Below the pieces are notes generated by a model. It was not told where the DNA came from and ran no database searches. It worked only from the letters and a program-made list of their open reading frames with translations. A stretch of DNA of 39,998 nucleotides from a virus. Within the stretch, counting starts at the first letter, position 1, and the number at the start of each line of letters is the position of its first letter. Below are positions 1,647-37,396 of the stretch, piece by piece. A program made the position numbers and the translations under genes. Where the stretch lies: positions 1 to 39,998 of the IMG/VR virus record IMGVR_UViG_3300027908_000037; one strand, 5' to 3'.

Positions 1647-2852
1647 TCATTGCACCGTGACGGGCGGCGGATTCGTTCTGTCGCCCGCCTCACAGATATC
1701 TTCCAGTCTGGTTTTGCAATTCGGACATTGATTCGATTCCGGTTCCTTCGGCATAGCAACCATTTCCTGACTGGACCCAGCGAGCGCCAATCCATCCCGA
1801 GTCTCAGGTTCTACCTCTCCATCTGAGTGTTCTCGCTCGATCAGCAGGGATGGTTCCGGTTCGCTGGTGGTTTTGCTCGGGGCATACAGAGCACCACTGG
1901 CTGCCGTGAGCCGCCGCCCGCCATAGAGAGATTCAATTGCGTATGCGCGTTGCGGGGTGAGGTCTAGGATGTCCCGCGAGCTGCCGAGTACCCAGTTGAG
2001 ACTGGATCGAATACGGTCGAACACTATGCCAGCTTCGGCCACGGGCGAAACGCGCTTGCCGAGCAGGTAAACGCTGCGGACCACGCTAGGCTGCCAAGGG
2101 CTGGGACGGCCCCCGATACCGCCCTGAGGTTTTAGTACACTTGTTTCTAAGGGGGGGTCTAGGGTTTTAGTACACTTGTTTCTAACAGGGGGGGGTTTTA
2201 GTACACTTGTTTCAATATATATAGTCTTTATTGAAACAAGTGTACTAAAACCCCCTTCGGTGCCCTTAGAAACATCTGTACTAAAACTACCCTCTGCCAC
2301 TGGAGGCCCTAGGTACAGCCCTCGGATTTGTCCCCGGATGGGATCGAATGCCCTGAGCAGCATGCAGCGATCGGGCTCGATGCCCTGGGATGCGAGTTGC
2401 GCCCGCCATGTCTGTTTGATATACCGGCTGAACTTTTCCATGATCTGGCGGTCACGGGCAGAGGCTTCGGGGACTGGCCATTCCAGTTCCAGCATTGGGC
2501 CGAGGTGGAGACTGGTAGACGCCATTGCGCCACGGATCAGGCTCTCCCACTCGAATGCCTGTCGGCCTAGCCGCCATCCACAGCAGTCTATGCAATAGAA
2601 TCGCTTGCGGCAAAACTTCATGCGGATGAACTGGGTGTAATCTCCCTTGGGGCAGCGGCGCATCACACGGAGACGCTGACAGCCGAGGAATGCCAATTGC
2701 TCATCAGTAGTGGTGCGTTCGAGGCGCTTGATCTCTCGATAGACAGCGAGCTGGCGGGAGTTCTCGGGGGTGGGATCGGCGGCGAGCGCGTCCGCGAATC
2801 TGTCGATCATAGCGCGTTTCTGTACGACGGTGAGCTTGCGGATGGTGGCCAC
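1647..2852 (-). CDS. Cys-rich protein with iteron-like repeats inside the gene; possible replication initiator
   Basis: This 401-residue frame is the only minus-strand gene in the first 24 kb. It ends five bases from the convergent gene at 1641. The N-terminal half is helical with a cysteine cluster around residues 58-92 (C-P-K-G-D, then FCRKRFYCIDCCGWRLG), probably a zinc site. Residues about 195-250 are encoded by a set of 21-22 bp direct and inverted DNA repeats, so the peptide there (ETSVLKP repeated) is probably a linker dictated by DNA. The C-terminal 150 residues are polar and include a CPNC motif. A gene carrying its own iterons recalls lambda O, but I see no helicase or Rep catalytic motif, so the initiator role is inference. 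Confidence 0.6.
   Translation of the reverse strand: MATIRKLTVVQKRAMIDRFADALAADPTPENSRQLAVYREIKRLERTTTDEQLAFLGCQRLRVMRRCPKGDYTQFIRMKFCRKRFYCIDCCGWRLGRQAFEWESLIRGAMASTSLHLGPMLELEWPVPEASARDRQIMEKFSRYIKQTWRAQLASQGIEPDRCMLLRAFDPIRGQIRGLYLGPPVAEGSFSTDVSKGTEGGFSTLVSIKTIYIETSVLKPPPVRNKCTKTLDPPLETSVLKPQGGIGGRPSPWQPSVVRSVYLLGKRVSPVAEAGIVFDRIRSSLNWVLGSSRDILDLTPQRAYAIESLYGGRRLTAASGALYAPSKTTSEPEPSLLIEREHSDGEVEPETRDGLALAGSSQEMVAMPKEPESNQCPNCKTRLEDICEAGDRTNPPPVTVQ
2129..2287. repeat. Five iteron-like repeats, three direct and two inverted, around an AT-rich core
   Basis: Copies lie at 2129-2150, 2164-2185 and 2195-2215 (unit GTTTTAGTACACTTGTTTC plus TAA, or AA in the third). Copies at 2231-2251 and 2266-2287 are in the opposite orientation, and the last is diverged (CATCTG for CAAGTG). 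Copies 3 and 4 are a perfect 21-bp inverted repeat around a 15-base AT-rich spacer (2216-2230). G-runs separate the direct copies. The set lies inside the 1647-2852 gene. An origin, operator array or recombination site would fit; no other copy is visible in the window. Confidence 0.85.
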
Positions 2853-15999: not shown

Positions 16000-18900
16000 G
16001 CACCCAGCCGAACAGTCGTCCGAATAGTCGTCAGCCATCGTTTCGTCGGTACGATCCATTCGCGGGGCGTCCACTCAAATCCGTTCCCCCTGTCGGCCCT
16101 ATTCCGGCACGAGTGTACTTGATCGGGGAACGCCCCGGTGAAAATGAAGCGCGTAGGGGCTTGCCATTCATAGGTCCCGCTGGAAAATATCTGGACATTT
16201 GTTTAGCTGCTGCCAATATCGAGCGATCTCAGTGCAGAATAAATAATTTGGTCTCTACTTTTGCTGGGTACGGGAAACCGACGAAAGCAGAAATTGACCG
16301 CGACCATGATGCACTTGTAGCTGACATTTTGGAGTGCGATCCAGAAGTGATCGGATTAGTTGGCGGATGGTCGGTAGAGCATGTGCTTGGCGTCGAGCAC
16401 GCCGAGATGGAGAAGGTCCATGGAGTCCCACAGAGAGTCCCGGCACTGTTCGGTGGGGAATTGCCGCGTGACGGCGGGTGGACGGTGCTGCCACTATTGC
16501 ATCCGGCGGGAGCGACTCACTCACCAGACAGCCTCCCACTTATTCTTGACGATATCCTTCAGCTTGGCCGATTACTCGACCACGAGATCGCCGTGCGTGA
16601 GTCCGATCCATTCGCAGGCCGCGAGGACTACCGCGATTATCCTGTGAGCGGGCGCGGGGTGATCGTCCATAAGCCAGCCGGAGTCGATACCGAAGGCAGC
16701 CGTGTGCATCCATGGTGTATGACTGTATCGACTCGCCCCGGCACTGGGATGCTGTTCAAACCGGGCCAGCGAGTCACGTTCAAAGGCAAAGTTTACCTCT
16801 GGAATGCACTGCACGATCTCGGTGTGCTCAAAAATCTAGGTATCGAACTCGCCGACGACCAGTATGTCGATCTGATGATATTGGCATATAACCTGTGTGT
16901 TCATCCGCAGGGTCTCAAGCCATCTGCATACCGCAACTGTGGCATGCACCAAGACGACTACGACGATATCGTCCGCGAGGCTCGGCTCACCAAAGCCATG
17001 GATTACCTGCTGGCGGCGGCAGACAGAGACTGGCCGAAAGCCGAACCCCAGGTAATCGAGGATGCTGGCAAATATCGCGTGTACAAGCCGAAGTCGGTCA
17101 ACTTTCGGATTAAAAAGATTCTCGACGACTGGACGAAATGGCAGGTAGGCGGGAGAGAAGAAGAAGTCGATCTCAGGAAGAGATGGAGAGACATCGACGA
17201 CGTGATCAAAGCGCCAGTGATCGAGGCAATGGGAGAGCTACCCGATGCCACTTTGGATGATGTCCCGTATGAGCGGGCGAAGTTCTATGCGATCCGAGAC
17301 GCGGATGCCACGTTGCGCATGGCACCGATATTGGAGCAGAAGATCAAGGACATGGGACTGGAAGAGATAGCCGCCATCGACCACGCGATACTCCCGATGC
17401 TGGATTCAGCGCAGCAGAACGGAATCAGACTGGATGGACCGGAGTTTTGGAATGGCATCGAGTCTCAGTGTGAGTCGCAGATGTCACAGGCACAGTATCA
17501 GGTGTTCAAGCTGACTGGCGAGGATATCAATCCCGGATCGGGGGATCAGGTCGCGGCACTACTCTACGGTAAATTGGGACTGACGCCGCCGAAATATACA
17601 GACAGTGGTGAACGTGGCTCAGTCAACGCTGTGTGTCTGGAAGCGTTGCTCGGTCAGAATCCCGTCATCCAGCACATCATGGATTACACGGAAGCGTCGA
17701 AAATCCGAGGCACGTATGTGCTGCCACTGCGGAAATTGTGCATGCTCGGGGATCGCAGAGTACGGTCCACAATACGCAGCACACGCACCACCACTGGCCG
17801 ACTCGCTATGGCTGACCCTCCTCTCCACCAGATCCCGATTATGACTGACCTTGGCAAGCAGTTGCGTGGAGGATTTATCGCGGAATCAGGCCATGTACTC
17901 TACGACATCGACGTGAATCAGTTAGAAATGCGTATCATGGCGCATGACTCCCGTGATGAGGAGTTGTGCCGTCTGTTTTTTGAGAATAGAGATATTCATG
18001 CAGAGACGGCCTGTAGCATATTTTCGGTGCCCATGAATGCTTTGAATGTCGGTCCCACTGGAAAGGTTAACGATTACCGTCGTACGGTAGCAAAGCACTG
18101 CATTGCTGAAAATGAGCTAGTGCTCACAGATCAAGGTTTGATTCCAATTCAAAACATAACTGTACAACATAAACTATGGGATGGTGTAGAATGGGTGACA
18201 CACGGTGGCCTGATTGATCAAGGCATCCGAGAGGTGATCACTTATGAAGGACTCACAGCAACACCAGACCACGAAGTCGTCACGGAAACTGGCACCATCC
18301 GAACGTTTGGGGAAGTTGCATCCTCGCTGGATAGGCTCCATACAACCGGGGATGAAAGGGAGGCGCTTCGGACTCGCTATCGTAGTCTCCTCGAAAGTTC
18401 GGCGCAGGAACGGATACATAGAGCTGAAAGTGAAATGCACGAAGTGTGGCCGGATTTGGTGGATCATCAAGTCGAACCTAGTCAAGCCAGAGTTTCGCGG
18501 TTGCAAAAAGTGCAGTATGACGAAATCCAAACATCAATGGGTTTTAGGCAGAAGATACGATGCCATATTCCAACGCTGCAACACCCCTCACTATCGAGGC
18601 TACAAGAACTATGGGGCTCGCGGCATCAAGTGCCTGTTCAAATCACGCGCGGAGTTTGTGAAGTGGGTGGAGAAGAATTTGCCGCATCCCGATTACAAGG
18701 GCACAACGATAGGCCGGATCAACAACGATGGTCACTACAAGCCCGGCAATCTTCGACTCGAAACGACAGCAGAGCAGAATCTAAACAAGCGTACAACTTT
18801 GTGGATGACATACCATGGAGAGCGCATTCTGTTCCACGACTTCGACAGTCCGTACGAGGCGTCGTGGACATCTCGACTAGTGCATCGCGGAATGACCGGA

Positions 18901-19610
18901 GAGCAAATCATCACCGATGCGATAGCTCATACCAAAAAAGGGCATCGATCGAAAACGTGGCGGAAGTTGGCCGTATGGCTCAATTCGCACGGGTATACGA
19001 CATAGTGAACGCTGGACCTAGGCGATGTTTCACAGCGTCGGGAAAGCTGGTGCTTAACTGCGCTTTCGGCATAATCAATGGAATCACGGAACACGGCCTT
19101 GTCAACTACATGATTCTCAATCGATGCCGCAGGCCGGATGGGGAACCTTGGAACATTGACGACTGTTTGCAAATGAGAGAAGCGTGGTTTCAGAAGTATT
19201 CGGGTGTCAGGCGTTTTCAGAACGAATGTATCGATGAGACGAGGCAGACTGGGCTGGCACGGGAGACAATCGGTGGACGGATTATTTATTTGCCGCAGGT
19301 ATGGTCTCCGGATAAGCGAGTCCGAGAAAGTGCTGAGAGGATGAGTTACGTGATGCACACTCAGGCCGGCGGCCAGACATTGATCAAAAAGTGCATGGCG
19401 ATGGTCTGGCGGGAAGTGTGCAAAGTGCACCGAGAGGTGAAATTTCTCCTGCAAATGCATGATGAATTGTTGTTCGAGCTGCCTGACGATGAGAACTTGA
19501 AACGAGAAGTAGACCAGAGATGTGTCGATATCCTGTGCAATGAGGTGAAATTAAGAGTCCCGGTGCTGGCAGATGGCGGGTTTGGAAATTCTTGGCTCCA
19601 TGCGCACTGA
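15996..19610 (+). CDS. UDG / 3'-5' exonuclease / family A DNA polymerase with an intein, 1204 aa precursor
   Basis: It starts at GTG 15996. Residues about 35-190 are a family-4-like uracil-DNA glycosylase (IGERPGENEARRGLPFIGPAG, then LLHPAGATH). Residues 225-440 are a proofreading exonuclease with D231-T-E, N270-x3-D274 and Y431-x3-D435. The polymerase follows: motif A DVNQLEMRIMAH, the O-helix RRTVAKH at 695-701, then the intein at 702-1021, then CAFGIING, and motif C LLQMHDELLFE. The O-helix Tyr of FGxxYG is Asn here. Ligated exteins would give about 884 residues. A UDG-like domain on a PolA enzyme is known in phage SPO1. It is the likely replicase. Confidence 0.9.
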   Translation: MSTQPNSRPNSRQPSFRRYDPFAGRPLKSVPPVGPIPARVYLIGERPGENEARRGLPFIGPAGKYLDICLAAANIERSQCRINNLVSTFAGYGKPTKAEIDRDHDALVADILECDPEVIGLVGGWSVEHVLGVEHAEMEKVHGVPQRVPALFGGELPRDGGWTVLPLLHPAGATHSPDSLPLILDDILQLGRLLDHEIAVRESDPFAGREDYRDYPVSGRGVIVHKPAGVDTEGSRVHPWCMTVSTRPGTGMLFKPGQRVTFKGKVYLWNALHDLGVLKNLGIELADDQYVDLMILAYNLCVHPQGLKPSAYRNCGMHQDDYDDIVREARLTKAMDYLLAAADRDWPKAEPQVIEDAGKYRVYKPKSVNFRIKKILDDWTKWQVGGREEEVDLRKRWRDIDDVIKAPVIEAMGELPDATLDDVPYERAKFYAIRDADATLRMAPILEQKIKDMGLEEIAAIDHAILPMLDSAQQNGIRLDGPEFWNGIESQCESQMSQAQYQVFKLTGEDINPGSGDQVAALLYGKLGLTPPKYTDSGERGSVNAVCLEALLGQNPVIQHIMDYTEASKIRGTYVLPLRKLCMLGDRRVRSTIRSTRTTTGRLAMADPPLHQIPIMTDLGKQLRGGFIAESGHVLYDIDVNQLEMRIMAHDSRDEELCRLFFENRDIHAETACSIFSVPMNALNVGPTGKVNDYRRTVAKHCIAENELVLTDQGLIPIQNITVQHKLWDGVEWVTHGGLIDQGIREVITYEGLTATPDHEVVTETGTIRTFGEVASSLDRLHTTGDEREALRTRYRSLLESSAQERIHRAESEMHEVWPDLVDHQVEPSQARVSRLQKVQYDEIQTSMGFRQKIRCHIPTLQHPSLSRLQELWGSRHQVPVQITRGVCEVGGEEFAASRLQGHNDRPDQQRWSLQARQSSTRNDSRAESKQAYNFVDDIPWRAHSVPRLRQSVRGVVDISTSASRNDRRANHHRCDSSYQKRASIENVAEVGRMAQFARVYDIVNAGPRRCFTASGKLVLNCAFGIINGITEHGLVNYMILNRCRRPDGEPWNIDDCLQMREAWFQKYSGVRRFQNECIDETRQTGLARETIGGRIIYLPQVWSPDKRVRESAERMSYVMHTQAGGQTLIKKCMAMVWREVCKVHREVKFLLQMHDELLFELPDDENLKREVDQRCVDILCNEVKLRVPVLADGGFGNSWLHAH
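18099..19058 (+). mobile_element. Intein in the polymerase O-helix, with an out-of-frame endonuclease gene inside (320 aa)
   Basis: It begins at Cys (CIAENELVLTDQG, block A), has block B GLTATPDHEVV with the T-x-x-H motif, and ends with VYDIVNAGP (block F) and LVLN before the +1 Cys (block G). The penultimate His usual in block G is Leu. Insertion lies between RRTVAKH and CAFG, the most conserved part of the polymerase. Between about residue 80 and 285 the intein frame is open but reads Ser/Arg/Gln-rich filler; the real endonuclease is in the +1 frame. It should self-splice, unless the missing His slows asparagine cyclisation. Confidence 0.88.
18244..19005 (+). CDS. HNH homing endonuclease nested out of frame inside the intein, 253 aa
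   Basis: The frame is +1 relative to the polymerase. ATG 18244 is preceded by GAGGTGATC at 18231-18239, which matches the 16S anti-Shine-Dalgarno well. After an N-terminus that overlaps intein block B comes a phage zinc domain (GRRFGLAIVV, then KCTKCGRIWW and CKKC). The nuclease part follows: RCNTPHYRGYKNYGARGIKC and the HNH core IGRINNDGHYKPGNLRLET with AEQNLNKR. The usual Asp before RIN is Gly. It ends in TAG at 19003-19005 inside intein block F. ATG 18352 is an alternative start. Confidence 0.82.
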   Translation: MKDSQQHQTTKSSRKLAPSERLGKLHPRWIGSIQPGMKGRRFGLAIVVSSKVRRRNGYIELKVKCTKCGRIWWIIKSNLVKPEFRGCKKCSMTKSKHQWVLGRRYDAIFQRCNTPHYRGYKNYGARGIKCLFKSRAEFVKWVEKNLPHPDYKGTTIGRINNDGHYKPGNLRLETTAEQNLNKRTTLWMTYHGERILFHDFDSPYEASWTSRLVHRGMTGEQIITDAIAHTKKGHRSKTWRKLAVWLNSHGYTT

Positions 19611-20999: not shown

Positions 21000-21373
21000 G
21001 GCTGTCAGACGCAATGATGCTGGGCAGCACACTGGTTAAACTTAACGCCGATGCATGGAACACCTGTTTGCTGGGGGTGAGTGTGGTAGCAACAGGCGGC
21101 AAGGACAACTGGTGTAACAGTGAGTGCAGAGCGCGGTGGCCGTGGATTGAGATTGAATTTGTGCCCCCACCGATGATCGACGCCGGGATAACGCCGCGCT
21201 GCGCTTCCGCTATTATCAGCTTGTTGACCGTGCTGGTAGAGAAAGGCGCTATCACACTGGAGCAGGCGGTGGACTGGGTGCGGTCGGTGGAGCCCGCCGA
21301 GGACGCGCCAAGTGAAGTAAGCACAAACAGTTTTGTCAACGAATCAGGAAAGATACAGGTGGGATCACTATGA
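20996..21373 (+). CDS. Hypothetical protein, 125 aa
   Basis: ATGA overlap at the start and the end. Contains two Cys near residue 40 (WCNSEC) and a helical C-terminal half. No recognised family. Probably co-expressed with the next gene. Confidence 0.5.
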   Translation: MRLSDAMMLGSTLVKLNADAWNTCLLGVSVVATGGKDNWCNSECRARWPWIEIEFVPPPMIDAGITPRCASAIISLLTVLVEKGAITLEQAVDWVRSVEPAEDAPSEVSTNSFVNESGKIQVGSL

Positions 21374-21795
21374 ATCGCGCGCAAATCGCAACATTGGCAA
21401 CTGAAATCGAGCAGTCGAGGCCGACACCGGAATGGGATAGCATCGGTGAACTCAAAAAGTTTCGCACCCAGATCGAAATCAAGGGCGGCGAGAAAAAGAC
21501 CGTGAAGTTCGATGACCTTGTGGTCTTGTACAAGACTTTGAAAGCGGAAGTAGAATTCCGTGAGAACCGCCTGAAGGATATCCGCGAGGCGCTGGAGACG
21601 GCGATGCTTTTGGCGGACGAAAAGCAGGTCGTCTGCGAGGGTTATCCGGTAAACTACATCACCAAAAAGGGCAGCCGGAGAATTGTTGCCGAAAAACTGC
21701 TGGCGAACGGCGTGTCGGCGGATACGATTGCAAAATCCACCGAGATTTCAGCGGACTCGTCTTACGTGATGGTTGGTAAGCCGAAGAAAGATTAA
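21370..21795 (+). CDS. Gp157-like or similar helical phage protein, 141 aa
   Basis: ATGA overlap with the previous gene. A long helical region (LKAEVEFRENRLKDIREALETAM) is followed by a beta tail ending SSYVMVGKPKKD. This helix-plus-tail shape recalls siphovirus Gp157-type proteins, but the likeness is weak. Its stop is five bases before the pentamer-periodic tract. Confidence 0.45.
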   Translation: MNRAQIATLATEIEQSRPTPEWDSIGELKKFRTQIEIKGGEKKTVKFDDLVVLYKTLKAEVEFRENRLKDIREALETAMLLADEKQVVCEGYPVNYITKKGSRRIVAEKLLANGVSADTIAKSTEISADSSYVMVGKPKKD

Positions 21796-21799
21796 CTGT

Positions 21800-21874
21800 G
21801 CTCCGCTGAGCCTTGTCAAGCTAAGCCTTGCCAAGTCCAGCTGAGCTTTGTTGTGCTGAGTTACGTCGAGCGAT
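21800..21874. repeat. Pentamer-periodic tract, 15 units of G-pyrimidine-N-N-N
   Basis: From 21800 every fifth base is G and the next is C or T, for 15 units in a row; 14 also have a pyrimidine at position three. Examples are GCTGA, GCCTT, GTCAA, GCTAA. It starts right after a stop codon and is not an exact repeat, so only the phase is kept. No gene overlaps it. Function unknown; half a helical turn per unit puts the G-Y steps on alternating faces. Confidence 0.75.
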
Positions 21875-22007
21875 AGTTAAGTGTCACCGGGCGGCCACTC
21901 ATACGGCTTCCGCCACATGCTGGGATGCAGGGAGTCTCAGTGGATGCAATCGGCAGCCGCCCGGAACGCAAATTGGCCGCTCAATTCATGTCAGAGGGAC
22001 AGATAGT

Positions 22008-22064
22008 ATGGACCGGAAACCATTTGCACCCGGCCAAGTCTGGGCTATCAACGGCTCACGGTGA
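22008..22064 (+). CDS. Possible 18-aa microprotein in the 21796-22179 gap
   Basis: GAGGGA precedes ATG 22008. The sequence (MDRKPFAPGQVWAINGSR) looks protein-like and the stop overlaps GTG 22061. With the next frame it might be one gene broken by a frameshift. Confidence 0.3.
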   Translation: MDRKPFAPGQVWAINGSR

Positions 22065-24019: not shown

Positions 24020-24230
24020 TCGGCTGGTGGAGGAGCGGTACGGAGCGTTCTGTGCCGCCCCCAGTTTCAATCTCGCTCAGATGAAGCATTGCAAATCAGT
24101 ATCGGACTCGGGTTCGATTCCCGACACCTCCACCAATAACACTAACGGGGGTGCCAAGGTTTCGACGGTGCTGGTGACCGATGTGGATGGGTAGGGCTGG
24201 CGTGGCACCTTACGACACGCAAATGCAACC

Positions 24231-24299
24231 GCCAATAAAATGGCAAAGCTGTTCGTCATCCCGGCTCCGGCCCTGATGGTGACGGCTGCTGCGGCCTAA
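24231..24299 (+). other. tmRNA tag-peptide frame (ANKMAKLFVIPAPALMVTAAAA)
   Basis: The resume codon is probably GCC 24231; GCA 24225 is in frame and possible. The 22-residue tag is long but ends in hydrophobic residues and Ala-Ala, the form recognised by ClpXP-type proteases. The stop is TAA. Tagging stalled products would rescue ribosomes on broken messages during infection. Confidence 0.75.
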
Positions 24300-24319
24300 C
24301 GGTCAAAGCTCTGGGAGTG

Positions 24320-24347
24320 GCCCCGTCCCTAGTGAAATAAACGGGGC
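24320..24347 (+). terminator. Hairpin at the end of the tmRNA gene
   Basis: GCCCCGT (24320-24326) and ACGGGGC (24341-24347) form a 7-bp GC-rich stem with a 14-base loop, followed by AAATTATTCT. It may be a weak intrinsic terminator or a terminal helix of the tmRNA precursor. Confidence 0.5.
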
Positions 24348-24362
24348 AAATTATTCTCCCAC

Positions 24363-24821
24363 ATGCAAGTCGCCTCCGCATTGGCAGCAGTGCCGGTAAT
24401 CGCCCCGCGCAAGTCCTCTCGATGCCCGCATTGCAGACTGAATCAATTTGAACTGGCGAGCGGACTATGCCGGAGATGCCATGTGGAGATGCACGCCCCG
24501 GTCGAACCACTGCCAATCGTTGCGTTCGCGCCTGACCCTATACCTCTACCTGTACCTCTACCTCTATCTCCACCTGTCCTTCCATCCCATCCACTATCAT
24601 TCTGGGTTCCCGCAACACTGCTATTCTTGCGCTTGCGCTCCGGACAGTCCCAGAATCAGATCGCCAAACGCATCCCTACGCCGCGCACGTATATCAGCAA
24701 AGTCGAGAATGGCTGCCTGGATATAACATTGGTGTCGCTTGTGAGATACGCGGAGGCGCTGAATACAACGCCTTGGGATGTGCTTAGATTATGCGAGTGG
24801 TTGATGCAAGAGAGCGAGTAG
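24363..24821 (+). CDS. Zinc-ribbon plus XRE-type HTH regulator, 152 aa
   Basis: ATG 24363 follows the tmRNA hairpin. CPHC and CRRC near residues 21-41 form a zinc ribbon. A proline linker comes next, encoded by CTACCT-like tandem repeats (24538-24590). Residues about 90-145 are an XRE helix-turn-helix (GQSQNQIAKRIPTPRTYISK, then LVRYAEAL and PWDVLRL). It is the last plus-strand gene before the convergent late block, two bases from its neighbour. Confidence 0.7.
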   Translation: MQVASALAAVPVIAPRKSSRCPHCRLNQFELASGLCRRCHVEMHAPVEPLPIVAFAPDPIPLPVPLPLSPPVLPSHPLSFWVPATLLFLRLRSGQSQNQIAKRIPTPRTYISKVENGCLDITLVSLVRYAEALNTTPWDVLRLCEWLMQESE

Positions 24822-24823
24822 CG

Positions 24824-25474
24824 TCAGATTATGGTTACAGGGTCTCTCACGGAGTCATAAAACTGCGCTCGGGGCATGACGTACTGACAGTACGTACACA
24901 TTGGGCAGCATACAATGGCCACGTCCTGGCTGTCGATCGCCAGTGCATGCGCGGTCTCCAGTGCTCCGTTGCTCGCTTGGATTCCATACAATCCGCCATT
25001 CGGGGATTGCACCAGGAGTTGATTTTGCCCTCCGCCGCCACCGACAGGAGTCAATTGCAAATCCACGAGTGGGCCGTTCGGTATGACGGTCAACTGATAA
25101 GTCTGCGATGTGGTCTGGTCTGTCAGCAATACAATAGAGTTGGCCGTGAATGACACTTGTGTAGCCGTGATGTCGATGCCGCCGTTAGTGACTCCGATCT
25201 GCCACACGCGCCCGAGGCTGTCTTGCAGATACGGAATCGTGATGACAAAAGCATCGGGGTCGAAAAAAATCATAGGCTCGTTCACGAAATGCGAGCAGCC
25301 ACATACCCAAAGTCCCGAATTTTCTGCCCAGATCATTCCCTGCACGGGGTAGGCGGCAAAAGGTATGTTGATCTGCTCTTGCGGGTAGACAGTCGTATAC
25401 GGACCTCCCGGTTGACTCCATGGGATATTGCCCCAGTTCTGCTCGTACAGCGTGCCGATAACGATTACGCCCAT
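24824..25474 (-). CDS. Late structural-type protein, 216 aa
   Basis: The start is ATG 25474 (GTG 25489 possible). Beta-rich throughout, with glycine runs and motifs such as YLQDSLGRVWQIGVTNGG and VQSPNGGLYGIQ, typical of tail-tip or appendage proteins with repeated beta strands. It is last in the minus-strand late operon. Function inferred only from context. Confidence 0.5.
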   Translation of the reverse strand: MGVIVIGTLYEQNWGNIPWSQPGGPYTTVYPQEQINIPFAAYPVQGMIWAENSGLWVCGCSHFVNEPMIFFDPDAFVITIPYLQDSLGRVWQIGVTNGGIDITATQVSFTANSIVLLTDQTTSQTYQLTVIPNGPLVDLQLTPVGGGGGQNQLLVQSPNGGLYGIQASNGALETAHALAIDSQDVAIVCCPMCTYCQYVMPRAQFYDSVRDPVTII

Positions 25475-27430: not shown

Positions 27431-27976
27431 TTACGGTGCGACGGTGATGGTGGTCGCTGCCGCTGTCTCCGTCGCCGTCTGTTGCTGTTGCATCGCAACC
27501 GCGCCCCAATCTTGATAGCAGTACGCGATGAGGCTGTCGGCAGCAACCTTCCGGATGAAGTCAACCAGCGACTCCCCGGCGCTCTCCGCCCATTCTCGAA
27601 AAGGCTCGATGACCTGCTCGGGCACCTCAACTTCGATAATCAAACCACCGCCGGGGCCTTTGCGGGGTCCGGTGGCAATACCCTGCGCCGAGGCCAGTGA
27701 TCTCAGCCTGTCACGCTGTTCCTGTGTCAGATTTGACACAAATGCGGCCAAGTCCGGTGTCGGCGGCGGTGTGCTGGGCGGATTAGCGCTCAGACTGCCC
27801 TGTTGTGCCGCCAAATCGCCCGATTCAGGGGGGGTTAAGACGGGATCTGTGGTCTGGGGGGTATCCATGTTTGCCTTGCTAGGATTGGCGCTAATCGCAT
27901 TCTCTGGCTGATATGGCTGATCCGGGTTGCCAGCCGTATTCCGGTGATCCTGCCACTGTCCCTTGTTTTTGCCCAT
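27431..27976 (-). CDS. Proline/glutamine-rich hypothetical protein, 181 aa
   Basis: GGAGG lies upstream of ATG 27976; GTG 27997 is an alternative. The N-terminal half is disordered and Pro/Ser/Asn-rich. Residues about 90-160 look folded (LIIEVEVPEQVIEPFREWAE, then DFIRKVAADSLIAYC). The tail is Gln/Thr/Ala low complexity. No family recognised. Confidence 0.5.
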   Translation of the reverse strand: MGKNKGQWQDHRNTAGNPDQPYQPENAISANPSKANMDTPQTTDPVLTPPESGDLAAQQGSLSANPPSTPPPTPDLAAFVSNLTQEQRDRLRSLASAQGIATGPRKGPGGGLIIEVEVPEQVIEPFREWAESAGESLVDFIRKVAADSLIAYCYQDWGAVAMQQQQTATETAAATTITVAP

Positions 27977-28047: not shown

Positions 28048-28512
28048 TCACTGCCACTCACCCGTGACGATCTGTGTTGCCAGTCTCTGCGCGCGTGCTG
28101 GTGATTGCACTTTCGCCCACTTCGAGTCCAGCATCTGTACTGACGCTTCTGGCCAGTTCTCATCCTGCATCGCGGCGAGTGCCTGCTTGAACTGAGCCAG
28201 CCCCTCGATTCCGAGTTGATAACACATATTCATCAGCACGCCGAACCGCACGCCATCCATTGTGCTCGTCCACGGGAATTGCACACGGATATCGGCAGCG
28301 GCCAGTGTAATGCGATTGACTGCCAGATACTCCATCTCGGCGTCAGTTAGTCCGCATCCACGACTAGCATCAATGCAGGTGCCGATGCCGACTGTGACGA
28401 ATCCCTTGACCATAGTCCCAGCGGAAATCGGAGCGCCATCGGCGTCATCGTATGCAGAGGATTTTTCGCCTTCATCTCGCTTGAGCTGATCGATGATATT
28501 GGTGATCGGCAT
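28048..28512 (-). CDS. T4-type lysozyme (GH24 endolysin), 154 aa
   Basis: ATG 28512 immediately follows a TAG that ends the previous frame, in the same reading frame. The catalytic arrangement Glu (KRDEGEKSSAYDDADG) then Gly-Thr (VTVGIGTCIDASRG) matches GH24 lysozymes, and MDGVRFGVLMNMCYQLG is the conserved middle helix. It cleaves peptidoglycan for release. No signal peptide, so a holin or the upstream domain must deliver it. Confidence 0.8.
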   Translation of the reverse strand: MPITNIIDQLKRDEGEKSSAYDDADGAPISAGTMVKGFVTVGIGTCIDASRGCGLTDAEMEYLAVNRITLAAADIRVQFPWTSTMDGVRFGVLMNMCYQLGIEGLAQFKQALAAMQDENWPEASVQMLDSKWAKVQSPARAQRLATQIVTGEWQ

Positions 28513-29421
28513 CTACTTCCCCAGCCTCGTTCCCGATAAGACAGAAATGATGTGCTCGAATCCCGTTCCCTCGTCGTAGTCGTTCCACGTCGGAATCGCC
28601 ACGTACTTGATGCTCGGCGGGATTGTTGCCACTTGGTCAAAGAACCAGTTGCCAGCTTGGTGATCCAGCCACCGTGTGGGGGTGGTTCCCGGCCAAGCCG
28701 ACAACAGCCAGTTACGGAGACCCTTCCATGCAGATTGCAGCGCCCCAGTCGGCGTAGGCTGTCCGCCATCGCAGAACATGATGTTCGCGCTGGCAATCTT
28801 CATCGTGGGCTTGGCGTGGTCGGCTTTGAGATCAGCCAATGCCAACGCAGGATTCGACGGATTATCACCTGTAACGATATTCGGCCACGAGTATCCCGTG
28901 TGCCATGAGAGGATGGGAATTGTCGGCACTGCTGCTTGCACCGTGGCCACATCGACTCCCGCCGAGGCGTTCATATCGAATTCCAGCACGTATTTCTCGG
29001 GCAGGTACGCCGGGGAGTTCAACACGCGCTGGCAGTCGGAATTCAACAACGCGCTGATAGTCGCTTGGGTGGGATTCGTCTGCTTCTCCGCGATCCACGG
29101 ATCGAGCATCAACCCGAACAGCAACTCGTGTTCCATGCAGCCTTCCCATATGTTCATCATCGCGTCGTGAAGGAATGGGTTTACAGTCGGCCCTTCCCAA
29201 TCCACAATGCAGCCCTTGATGCCAATGGCTTCCATGAAGTTGAGTTGATTGTTGATGACCACAGGATCATTGGACAGGTAGCGGTCGATGCGGTGCACTG
29301 TGGTGCCGTTGTTTTCGCCAAACCAGCCCTGCATGTGCGCGAGAGGTACGCCATTCCAGCCGACGATGTTCTTTTGCAGGGACTTTCCGAGATCGAGTGT
29401 TACTGGCGCGGTCATGGTCAT
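28513..29421 (-). CDS. Glycoside-hydrolase-like TIM barrel (GH71/GH99 type), 302 aa
   Basis: ATG 29421 overlaps the preceding stop. HMQGWFGENN near the start, KGCIVDWEGP in the middle and AIPTWNDYDEGTGFEH near the end match the barrel seen in GH71/GH99-type enzymes. It ends in TAG (28513-28515), directly followed in frame by the lysozyme ATG, so amber readthrough would give a 457-residue two-domain lysin. It probably degrades a cell-surface polysaccharide. Confidence 0.65.
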   Translation of the reverse strand: MTMTAPVTLDLGKSLQKNIVGWNGVPLAHMQGWFGENNGTTVHRIDRYLSNDPVVINNQLNFMEAIGIKGCIVDWEGPTVNPFLHDAMMNIWEGCMEHELLFGLMLDPWIAEKQTNPTQATISALLNSDCQRVLNSPAYLPEKYVLEFDMNASAGVDVATVQAAVPTIPILSWHTGYSWPNIVTGDNPSNPALALADLKADHAKPTMKIASANIMFCDGGQPTPTGALQSAWKGLRNWLLSAWPGTTPTRWLDHQAGNWFFDQVATIPPSIKYVAIPTWNDYDEGTGFEHIISVLSGTRLGK

Positions 29422-31677: not shown

Positions 31678-33917
31678 GGGTTGCCAATCGCGATCCAATC
31701 GAACGCATCACTCGCCCCCGAGCAAGCCACAGTGAATCCAGTATTGGCCTTGGAACTCAGTGTCGCTCCCCCGCCAGTGGTCTCGTCGAACACCACGATC
31801 ACCGGGGTGGCGTTATACGGAATGCTGAACGCAATGTTCTTGGTGCTCGATATACACGCGGACGTGCCCGCGAACTGCCCCGCTGATGTCTGGTTGATAT
31901 TCGGCAGATACGTGCGGCCTTGATTCGTCCCAGTGGTTGCATCCGTGTATGTGTAGTGCGCGATCCGGGCGTCGGTCAGGTTCTGGGAGTTGACCGTGTT
32001 CTGAATTGAGTTCGTCCAGGCGTCGAAATTGATCAGGTTATCGATGGTGACCATGGTAGTGGAGCCACCGGAGTTCGATATCTTGACGCAGGCAGCCCCA
32101 GCATTAGTATCAGAGGTGAACGTGGCATCGACAATGTGCACACCGGAACAGTTCACACAGCCCACACCAATATCTCCGGTGTTGATCGACTCAAACTGCG
32201 TCCCGTAAAAGTTAACCCCGTTGATCAGCGCGCTGGCGGATGGTCCTTCAATATCGACAATGGCTATTCCACCGGGACCGGGGTGTGAGAGTGACCCCCC
32301 GAAAAAGTTGATATTTGTGAGCGCGCCGGGACCGCTGCTGGTGATTTTGACAGGCCGCGCACCAGTGTTGCCATAGGCGTTGATCGTGATGTTCTGGAAG
32401 TTCAGCGGGCCAAGCGCATCAGTGCTGGACGTGCGGATGTTCAGGCCGACCGTGTTGTAGAAGTCGTAAATCACGATGTCTGAGATCGTGGTCTGGTCGG
32501 TGACATTATTGATGTCGAGGATACCGTTGGTGACGGTGGCGGCGGAGTTACCCTGCAATGTGATCCCGTGGATGCCGCAGATAGGCTCGGGAGCCACACC
32601 GGGGACGCACGCGAGTACCGAGGCTACATTGGCACCGGCAGCGAGATTGAATCCACCGGGGCCGCTGGAGGTAATCGGATTGGCTGAGTCCGAGTCCGCC
32701 CAAATCGAGGATGAGCTGTACAAAGATACCGCTGGAGTGCCAGTGTTAACCGTGATGTTCCAGTTCGTGCAGCGGTCAACGATAAACGTGATCTGCTGGG
32801 ATACTGAGCCGATATTGATCGGATTCGCAATGGTCACTGTGGTGCAACCATACCCGCGAGCGTCGATAGTCCCACCGATGGATGGGAGTGCGGCTTCGGC
32901 GGCGGCGATCTGGATGTCGGCAGTGGACCCGGGGAATTGATTCGGATACTGAATGCCGTTGAGGGATCGCACAGTGGTGGTGATCGCGCTGAGTCCATTG
33001 AGAGTGGATGAATTAGTGACACCGAGTGTGTTCAGCGCGGTCGGACCTGAAACGCTGAGAGAGCCGCCAATGTTGGCTGTGCTCGATACGCCGAGAGTGC
33101 TACTCAGTGTGGTCGCACCTGCCACGCTAAGAGTGTTATTCAGAGTGGTAGCGCCAGTCACCCCCAGAGTGCTATTGAGAGTAGTGACACCTGTGACCCC
33201 GAATGTGCCACCGACACTGGTATTGCCGGTAAGAGTGGATGTCCCTGTGACTGATAATGTGCCTGCCACTCCGACGTTGCCAGTGAATGACGTGGGACCG
33301 AGGGTGGTTGGCACATCAGCGGCAACTAGGCTGCGGAATAATGGTGTGCCGGTGGAGCCATTCGGGGAGGCGAGGATTAAGTTGGGTGACTCAGACGCGA
33401 ATGTAACCGCGATGGAGCCCGAGCCGGAGACTGGACTGTTAGAGACGTTGAATATGTTCGGCATGGTGAGTCCGACAGAGGTGACGGTGCCGGCGACTGC
33501 CTGTTCGAGATACGAGTATAGGATTCCGTTGACAGGCGTAACCTGCACGATGACAGCTCCAGGAGACACCCACAATGACACGTTTCCATACTGATCACTC
33601 GTAGCGGGGTTGCTGGTAGGCACTGTCAGCCCCGGATCAAGAAACAAATTCGATAAAGGCGAACAAGGAGTACCAGAGGCGGTGTAAGGACAGACACGTA
33701 CTGTTGCATATGGAGCAGGCCCACCAGTTCCAGCAGGCGGCGGAGGTTGAATTATTTGGAGAGAAACAGACCCACCCTGAGCAAAAGAAACACTCGTCAA
33801 CAGGGCAATGTAGAGGTAAAATAAAATTACGTTGCGGCCAAGTGCCGCACGAATCCTATTAGAGGTAGGACCATGACACGCTCTCGTGAAGCGCAAAGCA
33901 CTCAGCCGCAAGATCAT
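31671..33917 (-). CDS. Large tail-fibre/spike-like protein, about 748 aa
   Basis: A hydrophobic export-type segment (NVILFYLYIALLTSVSFAQGG) lies near the N-terminus. After PPPPAG comes a domain with YATVRVCPYTASGTPCSPL and DQYGNVSLWVSPG, then tandem repeats of about eight residues (TLNSTLGVTGATTLNNTL type, about 13 copies), then a right-handed beta-helix-like region with many Asn and Gly. That order fits a receptor-binding fibre or spike. The start is unclear: ATG 33917 lies inside the opposing HNH gene, and no ATG, GTG or TTG lies between it and the hydrophobic segment. Confidence 0.7.
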   Translation of the reverse strand: MILRLSALRFTRACHGPTSNRIRAALGRNVILFYLYIALLTSVSFAQGGSVSLQIIQPPPPAGTGGPAPYATVRVCPYTASGTPCSPLSNLFLDPGLTVPTSNPATSDQYGNVSLWVSPGAVIVQVTPVNGILYSYLEQAVAGTVTSVGLTMPNIFNVSNSPVSGSGSIAVTFASESPNLILASPNGSTGTPLFRSLVAADVPTTLGPTSFTGNVGVAGTLSVTGTSTLTGNTSVGGTFGVTGVTTLNSTLGVTGATTLNNTLSVAGATTLSSTLGVSSTANIGGSLSVSGPTALNTLGVTNSSTLNGLSAITTTVRSLNGIQYPNQFPGSTADIQIAAAEAALPSIGGTIDARGYGCTTVTIANPINIGSVSQQITFIVDRCTNWNITVNTGTPAVSLYSSSSIWADSDSANPITSSGPGGFNLAAGANVASVLACVPGVAPEPICGIHGITLQGNSAATVTNGILDINNVTDQTTISDIVIYDFYNTVGLNIRTSSTDALGPLNFQNITINAYGNTGARPVKITSSGPGALTNINFFGGSLSHPGPGGIAIVDIEGPSASALINGVNFYGTQFESINTGDIGVGCVNCSGVHIVDATFTSDTNAGAACVKISNSGGSTTMVTIDNLINFDAWTNSIQNTVNSQNLTDARIAHYTYTDATTGTNQGRTYLPNINQTSAGQFAGTSACISSTKNIAFSIPYNATPVIVVFDETTGGGATLSSKANTGFTVACSGASDAFDWIAIGNPR

Positions 33918-37157: not shown

Positions 37158-37234
37158 TGGAGCACCGTGCGGGACTCGAACCCGCGACCGTTGGAATTAG
37201 AATCCACTGCTCTGCCAGTCTGAGCTAACGGTGC
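37158..37234 (-). tRNA. tRNA with anticodon CUA (amber suppressor type)
   Basis: Full cloverleaf on the minus strand: acceptor GCACCGT/ACGGTGC, D stem GCTC/GAGC with GG in the loop, anticodon stem GTGGA/TCCAA (one G-A mismatch at the outer pair), loop TTCTAAT giving CTA, variable CGGTC, T-arm GCGGG-TTCGAGT-CCCGC, discriminator T, encoded CCA. It should read UAG. The charged amino acid is unknown. Confidence 0.85.
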
Positions 37235-37245
37235 CCGTCATAAAA

Positions 37246-37321
37246 TGGAGCCGAGGGATGGAATTGAACCACCGACCTCTCTGCTAAAAGCAGAGTGCTC
37301 TGGCAACTGAGCTACCTCGGC
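37246..37321 (-). tRNA. tRNA-Lys (anticodon UUU)
   Basis: Acceptor GCCGAGG/CCTCGGC, D stem GCTC/GAGC, anticodon stem CTCTG/CAGAG with loop CTTTTAG, T-arm GGTGG-TTCAATT-CCATC, encoded CCA. Discriminator is T rather than the A usual for lysine tRNA, and the D-loop lacks the GG pair, so charging may be altered. Confidence 0.88.
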
Positions 37322-37322
37322 T

Positions 37323-37396
37323 TGGCACTCGCGGCTGGCAGTGAGCCAGCATCTCCGGCTTTAGAGGCCGATGCTCTCCGATTGAGCTACGCGAGT
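37323..37396 (-). tRNA. Second tRNA with anticodon CUA (amber suppressor type)
   Basis: Acceptor ACTCGCG/CGCGAGT, D stem GCTC/GAGC with loop AATCGGA, anticodon stem TCGGC/GCCGG, loop CTCTAAA giving CTA (the loop also found in supF), four-base variable region, T-stem GCTGG/CCAGC with an unusual loop CTCACTG in place of the TTC-type loop, discriminator G, encoded CCA. The odd T-loop may affect stability. Confidence 0.78.

Follow-up and report, generated by a model that had tools for sequence, protein, structure and literature searches.

A phased tract of GYYNN pentamers in a phage genome fragment is very likely an orphan vrRNA-type array

The phased pentamer tract of the DNA stretch analysed here (the window: the 39,998 nucleotides of IMG/VR virus record IMGVR_UViG_3300027908_000037) is very likely an orphan guide RNA of a GYY/NN variant of VIPR, with its Vipr protein provided in trans or encoded on a missing part of the genome. 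VIPR systems are composed of a mostly phage-encoded RAMP protein (Vipr) and guide RNAs (vrRNAs) of 9-16 YNNGG units, where a conserved GGY alternates with a variable NN, and the vrRNA reads double-stranded DNA with a one-base skip (PMC13142463). A literature search on vrRNA and VIPR returned this paper alone, the accessible text of which distinguishes seven VIPR types and speaks of 'GGY/NN motifs, or a related consensus' (PMC13142463). The tract shows the repeat organization of a vrRNA, that is, between 9 and 16 pentamers made of a GGY-related triplet plus NN, the triplet here being GYY and not the canonical GGY. Other traits of a vrRNA are an invariable 3' tail of conserved structure and expression as an RNA of ~100 nt that co-purifies with Vipr. 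No vipr gene was recognised in the fragment, and we therefore class the tract as a vrRNA-type orphan array but stop short of calling the window a VIPR system. The features considered are given in Table 1.

Table 1. Location of the repeat tract, its neighbours and the VIPR locus of the relative L128
Feature	Sequence	Position	Strand	Remarks
vrRNA-like repeat tract	window	21800-21874	+	15 GYYNN units, 14 with full GYY; NN (unit positions 4-5) variable
Possible 3' tail	window	21881-21969	+	long-looped stem immediately 3' of the tract; weak, RNA fold z -1.77
141-aa ORF	window	21370-21795	+	precedes the tract; anchor conserved in L128 (57% identity); in no known VIPR locus
GYYNN arrays	L128	8289-8374, 8679-8823, 9509-9728		flank Vipr on both sides
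Vipr	L128	8852-9505		217 aa, between the arrays

The units of the tract are, in order, GCTCC, GCTGA, GCCTT, GTCAA, GCTAA, GCCTT, GCCAA, GTCCA, GCTGA, GCTTT, GTTGT, GCTGA, GTTAC, GTCGA and GCGAT. All 15 have G at position 1 and C or T at position 2, and 14 of them have C or T at position 3, in agreement with the count given in a first-pass annotation made from the letters of the window. Position 4 is mixed (G in five units, A in five, T in three and C in two). Position 5 is A in eight units, T in five and C in two, and the absence of G from all 15 implies that it is less free than expected of a hypervariable position. In 30 dinucleotide-preserving shuffles of the window the longest G-Y runs reached 4-7 units, against 15 in the tract; the annotation had held this phase to be beyond chance unless runs of similar length were common in shuffled sequence, and none longer than seven units appeared. 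No other G-Y run of at least six units was detected on either strand of the whole window, and the best constraint of one base plus a two-base set at periods of 4, 6, 7 or 8 extended over only 7-9 units within it. The lag-5 identity of the tract is 0.49 with a perfect G-Y phase, confirming that the units follow each other without exact repetition, and Tandem Repeats Finder gave no entry at the tract because the units differ to this degree. Imperfect tandem repeats of about 35-36 bp occur elsewhere in the window (2128-2213 and 33094-33200).

The tract starts 4 bases past the TAA of the 141-aa ORF and has the same direction as this gene, so that its placement right after a stop codon is correct. 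The annotation also stated that no gene covers it; a mechanical ORF from a TTG start (21828-22064, 78 aa) does overlap the second part of the tract, and we regard this ORF as spurious. Searches with blastn using either the tract or window positions 15000-39998 retrieved no match among 50,697 phage records, and no Rfam family was assigned at the tract or at its possible 3' tail. The fold of the downstream segment was equalled by 9 of 200 shuffles, and the window, with its single array, offers no second one for comparison; by comparison, strong folding (z -3.26 and -3.95) is seen in the stretches behind two of the arrays of L128. The 3' tail of the window tract is not convincing. Further downstream, positions 24075-24299 (plus strand) matched the Rfam family tmRNA_permuted (RF04321) with a score of 85.8 bits, the gathering score being 47, and ARAGORN placed a tmRNA at 24043-24390; the permuted form of this RNA is unusual for a phage fragment.

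Using the PolA of the window as query we found two relatives, L127 (93% identical) and L128 (79%). L127 is a contig of 8.3 kb that stops short of the tract. Among long records, L128 (IMGVR_UViG_3300031823_000003; 86 kb) is the one closest to the window phage, and its synteny with the window extends to the 141-aa ORF and to genes to the right. Searched alone, this ORF had no relative among phages or IMG/VR, and an alignment of it with its L128 homologue retrieved the L128 contig again and nothing else. The window PolA also contains an intein-like insert (18143-19056), missing from the L128 PolA, which leaves the frame open and harbors a nested ORF (18244-19005), presumably a homing endonuclease.

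L128 carries GYYNN arrays around a Vipr gene, so the GYY/NN form of vrRNA exists in a phage closely related to that of the window. An exact search for seven consecutive GYYNN units in the whole L128 record gave 11 overlapping matches, all of them in the first two arrays, and the reversed pattern gave zero; the third array is long and interrupted. These arrays do not coincide with the tract, which stands where L128 has none: the VIPR locus of L128 lies between the homologues of the genes at window positions 25253-25456 and 27497-27850, where the window has other genes.

The assignment of the L128 protein as a Vipr is based on sequence, predicted structure and phylogeny. As a reference, size and location were used to pick out the Vipr of Escherichia phage SUSP1 in KT454805, where the adjoining gaps contain GGY arrays, and the PDB chain 36pp ('SUSP1 Vipr protein') matches our profile A2, whose first row is the KT454805 Vipr, with an E-value of 2.3e-53. 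The L128 protein matches phrog_4652 (E 1.8e-13) and the 36pp chain (E 0.003). Its AlphaFold2 model (mean pLDDT of 79) resembles RAMPs of the Csm3/Cas7 kind from type III and type VII complexes, with 90 matches at E-values up to 0.001 and TM-scores normalized by the query of 0.30-0.53 for the best 50 of these 90. In the phylogeny it falls within a clade of nine Vipr proteins with an SH-aLRT support of 100, which includes GGY and GYY arrays and where L074 is the other member of the GYY type.

Given that the annotation had proposed to look for long GYNNN runs in phage genomes and for the genes that flank them, it is relevant that degenerate arrays of this kind mostly accompany a Vipr homologue. 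When IMG/VR was scanned for runs of 14 GY pentamers in phase, at least 120 stretches were obtained; among the matches listed, some are microsatellites or coding repeats and many are degenerate arrays, often several per phage and some of them neatly contained in intergenic gaps. Homologues of Vipr were obtained by searches grown from the SUSP1 protein and counted with profile A2; among the matches listed for the GY pattern, 87 of 120 loci encode one, and so do 85 of the 102 whose arrays are degenerate. The backward control, 14 units of YGNNN, was not plainly negative, with Vipr in 40 of 105 YG-only loci (L177-L281) and in 36 of the 47 YG-only loci with degenerate arrays, both among the matches listed. 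The presence of Vipr beside degenerate YG arrays as well implies that VIPR is marked by degenerate period 5 in general and not by GY only, and the guide repeat probably has additional consensus forms. A cleaner negative than the YG pattern is provided by the unrelated loci fetched with the target patterns described below, where Vipr was found in 0 of 44 (4 viral and 40 bacterial or archaeal).

No vipr gene was detected in the 39,998 bp of the window with three profiles under the standard and altered genetic codes, and neither a cryptic Vipr under amber or opal recoding nor a relic with its stops read through was found there. The window record is viral and has linear ends, which often mean a fragment; considering also that the L128 contig is more than twice as long, a vipr gene elsewhere in the genome of the window phage is possible. 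With regard to codon usage in the window, a minus-strand ORF (28513-29421) is closed by TAG, beyond which the frame stays open through 28048-28512; with TAG read as Q the two form a single frame of 501 aa, for which amber readthrough or recoding is possible (28048-29421), and three tRNAs are present, two of them with a CTA anticodon (37158-37396, minus strand).

Candidate arrays without a recognised Vipr gene occur in other records as well. Among the matches listed, 17 of the 102 loci with degenerate GY arrays had no Vipr in the fetched stretch; a search of the whole records of all 17 recovered it in three, leaving 14 of the 102 without it. Six of the Vipr-less records are 35-105 kb long (L009, L017, L018, L041, L076 and L121) and are candidates for orphan guide arrays, of which the window would be the seventh. 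A tentative extension, which we consider possible but doubtful, is that guide-only phages exist, where the window phage would encode a GYY/NN vrRNA without a Vipr of its own and would either hijack the Vipr of a co-resident relative for its own target or titrate it.

If the tract acts as a vrRNA, it would be transcribed co-directionally with the genes around it, and each pentamer of the RNA would be bound at its conserved GYY by one of a row of Vipr (RAMP) subunits. The NN pairs, left exposed from unit to unit, would then jointly read a DNA target as NN-x-NN-x, leading to repression of the target gene, with the Vipr coming in trans from a co-infecting relative or a prophage, or from a gene beyond the fragment. 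By analogy with the published one-base skip, the target predicted for this variant would be CCxGAxTTxAAxAAxTTxAAxCAxGAxTTxGTxGAxACxGAxAT, and if each skip is placed at the wobble position of a codon, no stop would be forced. Among the NN pairs of 97 strand-unambiguous GGY arrays from 37 loci, TA is depleted (52 of 1359, with 87.7 expected), as expected if NN corresponds to codon positions 1-2; for the window (0 against 1.6 expected) and L128 (5 against 5.9) the samples are too small to tell.

The search for a natural target gave matches at chance level only, in the window, the scan loci, viral_contigs (two patterns) and genome_contigs (one pattern), the scans of the last two being made with exact sub-patterns. 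The four viral matches represent one locus in four near-identical contigs, agree in 22 of 30 letters and do not lie in a reading frame that would put the skip at the wobble base. Shuffled units were exceeded in one case only (14 versus 1), and this excess includes the four viral contigs fetched by the same pattern. In the 40 genome matches, between 1 and 7 of the 12 letters outside the pattern agree, the best reaching 25 of 30 letters (L175).

Among the other explanations for the tract, it could be a decaying remnant of a former VIPR locus that lost its vipr gene and was left with a non-working array, in agreement with a fragment that has no vipr, a single array and no clear tail. We consider this unlikely, considering that decay should erode the phase and the 15 units are unbroken, with G-Y in every one, and that no vipr relic was found even with stops read through. 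A decayed microsatellite or a functionless low-complexity stretch arisen by chance is very improbable: plain microsatellites and coding repeats do appear among the loci that match the same pattern, but the tract combines a lag-5 identity of only 0.49 with a perfect G-Y phase, is absent from the Tandem Repeats Finder output and exceeds the seven units that shuffled sequence attains at most.

The annotation had suggested a protein-loading site for a recombinase or SSB and a packaging or origin element next to an RNA-binding array. Of these, a phased DNA loading site for a RecT-type annealing protein, which would occupy 5 bp per monomer, finds a parallel in LiRecT, reported to bind 5 bp per monomer, but the accessible text on that protein makes no mention of sequence specificity (PMC9772228). 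Moreover, the degenerate arrays adjoin Vipr genes (the 85 of 102 listed loci described above) and the scanned subset of window proteins contained no match of the RecT/Red-beta type. Loading by a recombinase or SSB received no support, the arrays being found beside Vipr instead; the recombinase reading, which had been considered through LiRecT (PMC9772228), was dropped once the Vipr association appeared, and we judge it extremely improbable. A packaging or origin element found no support either. The suggestion of an RNA-binding array went in the right direction: the evidence favours a vrRNA, an RNA with five-base repeats to which a RAMP-type protein binds.

The reading of the tract as an orphan vrRNA concerns a mode of RNA-guided DNA recognition that was described only in April 2026 and has been proposed to be older than CRISPR. 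Here the class was recovered independently, from raw sequence, the GYY/NN form of the code is displayed by a relative whose Vipr belongs to a well-supported clade, and an instance is added of a guide array that stands without its protein. If orphan guides work in trans, phages could redirect the RNA-guided weapons of each other.

Compared with known systems, the tract shares with the SUSP1 vrRNAs its noncoding tandem pentamers made of a conserved triplet and a variable pair, a number of units within 9-16 and a phage-borne location, and its relative L128 has arrays adjoining a Vipr gene; it differs in its GYY triplet instead of GGY, and the window in its single array, without a clear tail and with neither vipr nor vap recognised among the genes of the fragment. 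The VIPR loci of L128 and L074 have the same GYY/NN unit form, L128 being also syntenic with the window, but they include the Vipr gene, their arrays are several or longer and their location in the genome is another. With the crRNA of class 1 CRISPR systems, which have a Cas7-type RAMP backbone, the likeness resides in RAMP subunits that coat a guide RNA at a fixed step (PMC13142463) and in the match of the L128 Vipr model to Csm3/Cas7; instead of a repeat-spacer array and cas genes, neither of which the window has, the tract interleaves conserved and guide positions within each of its units.
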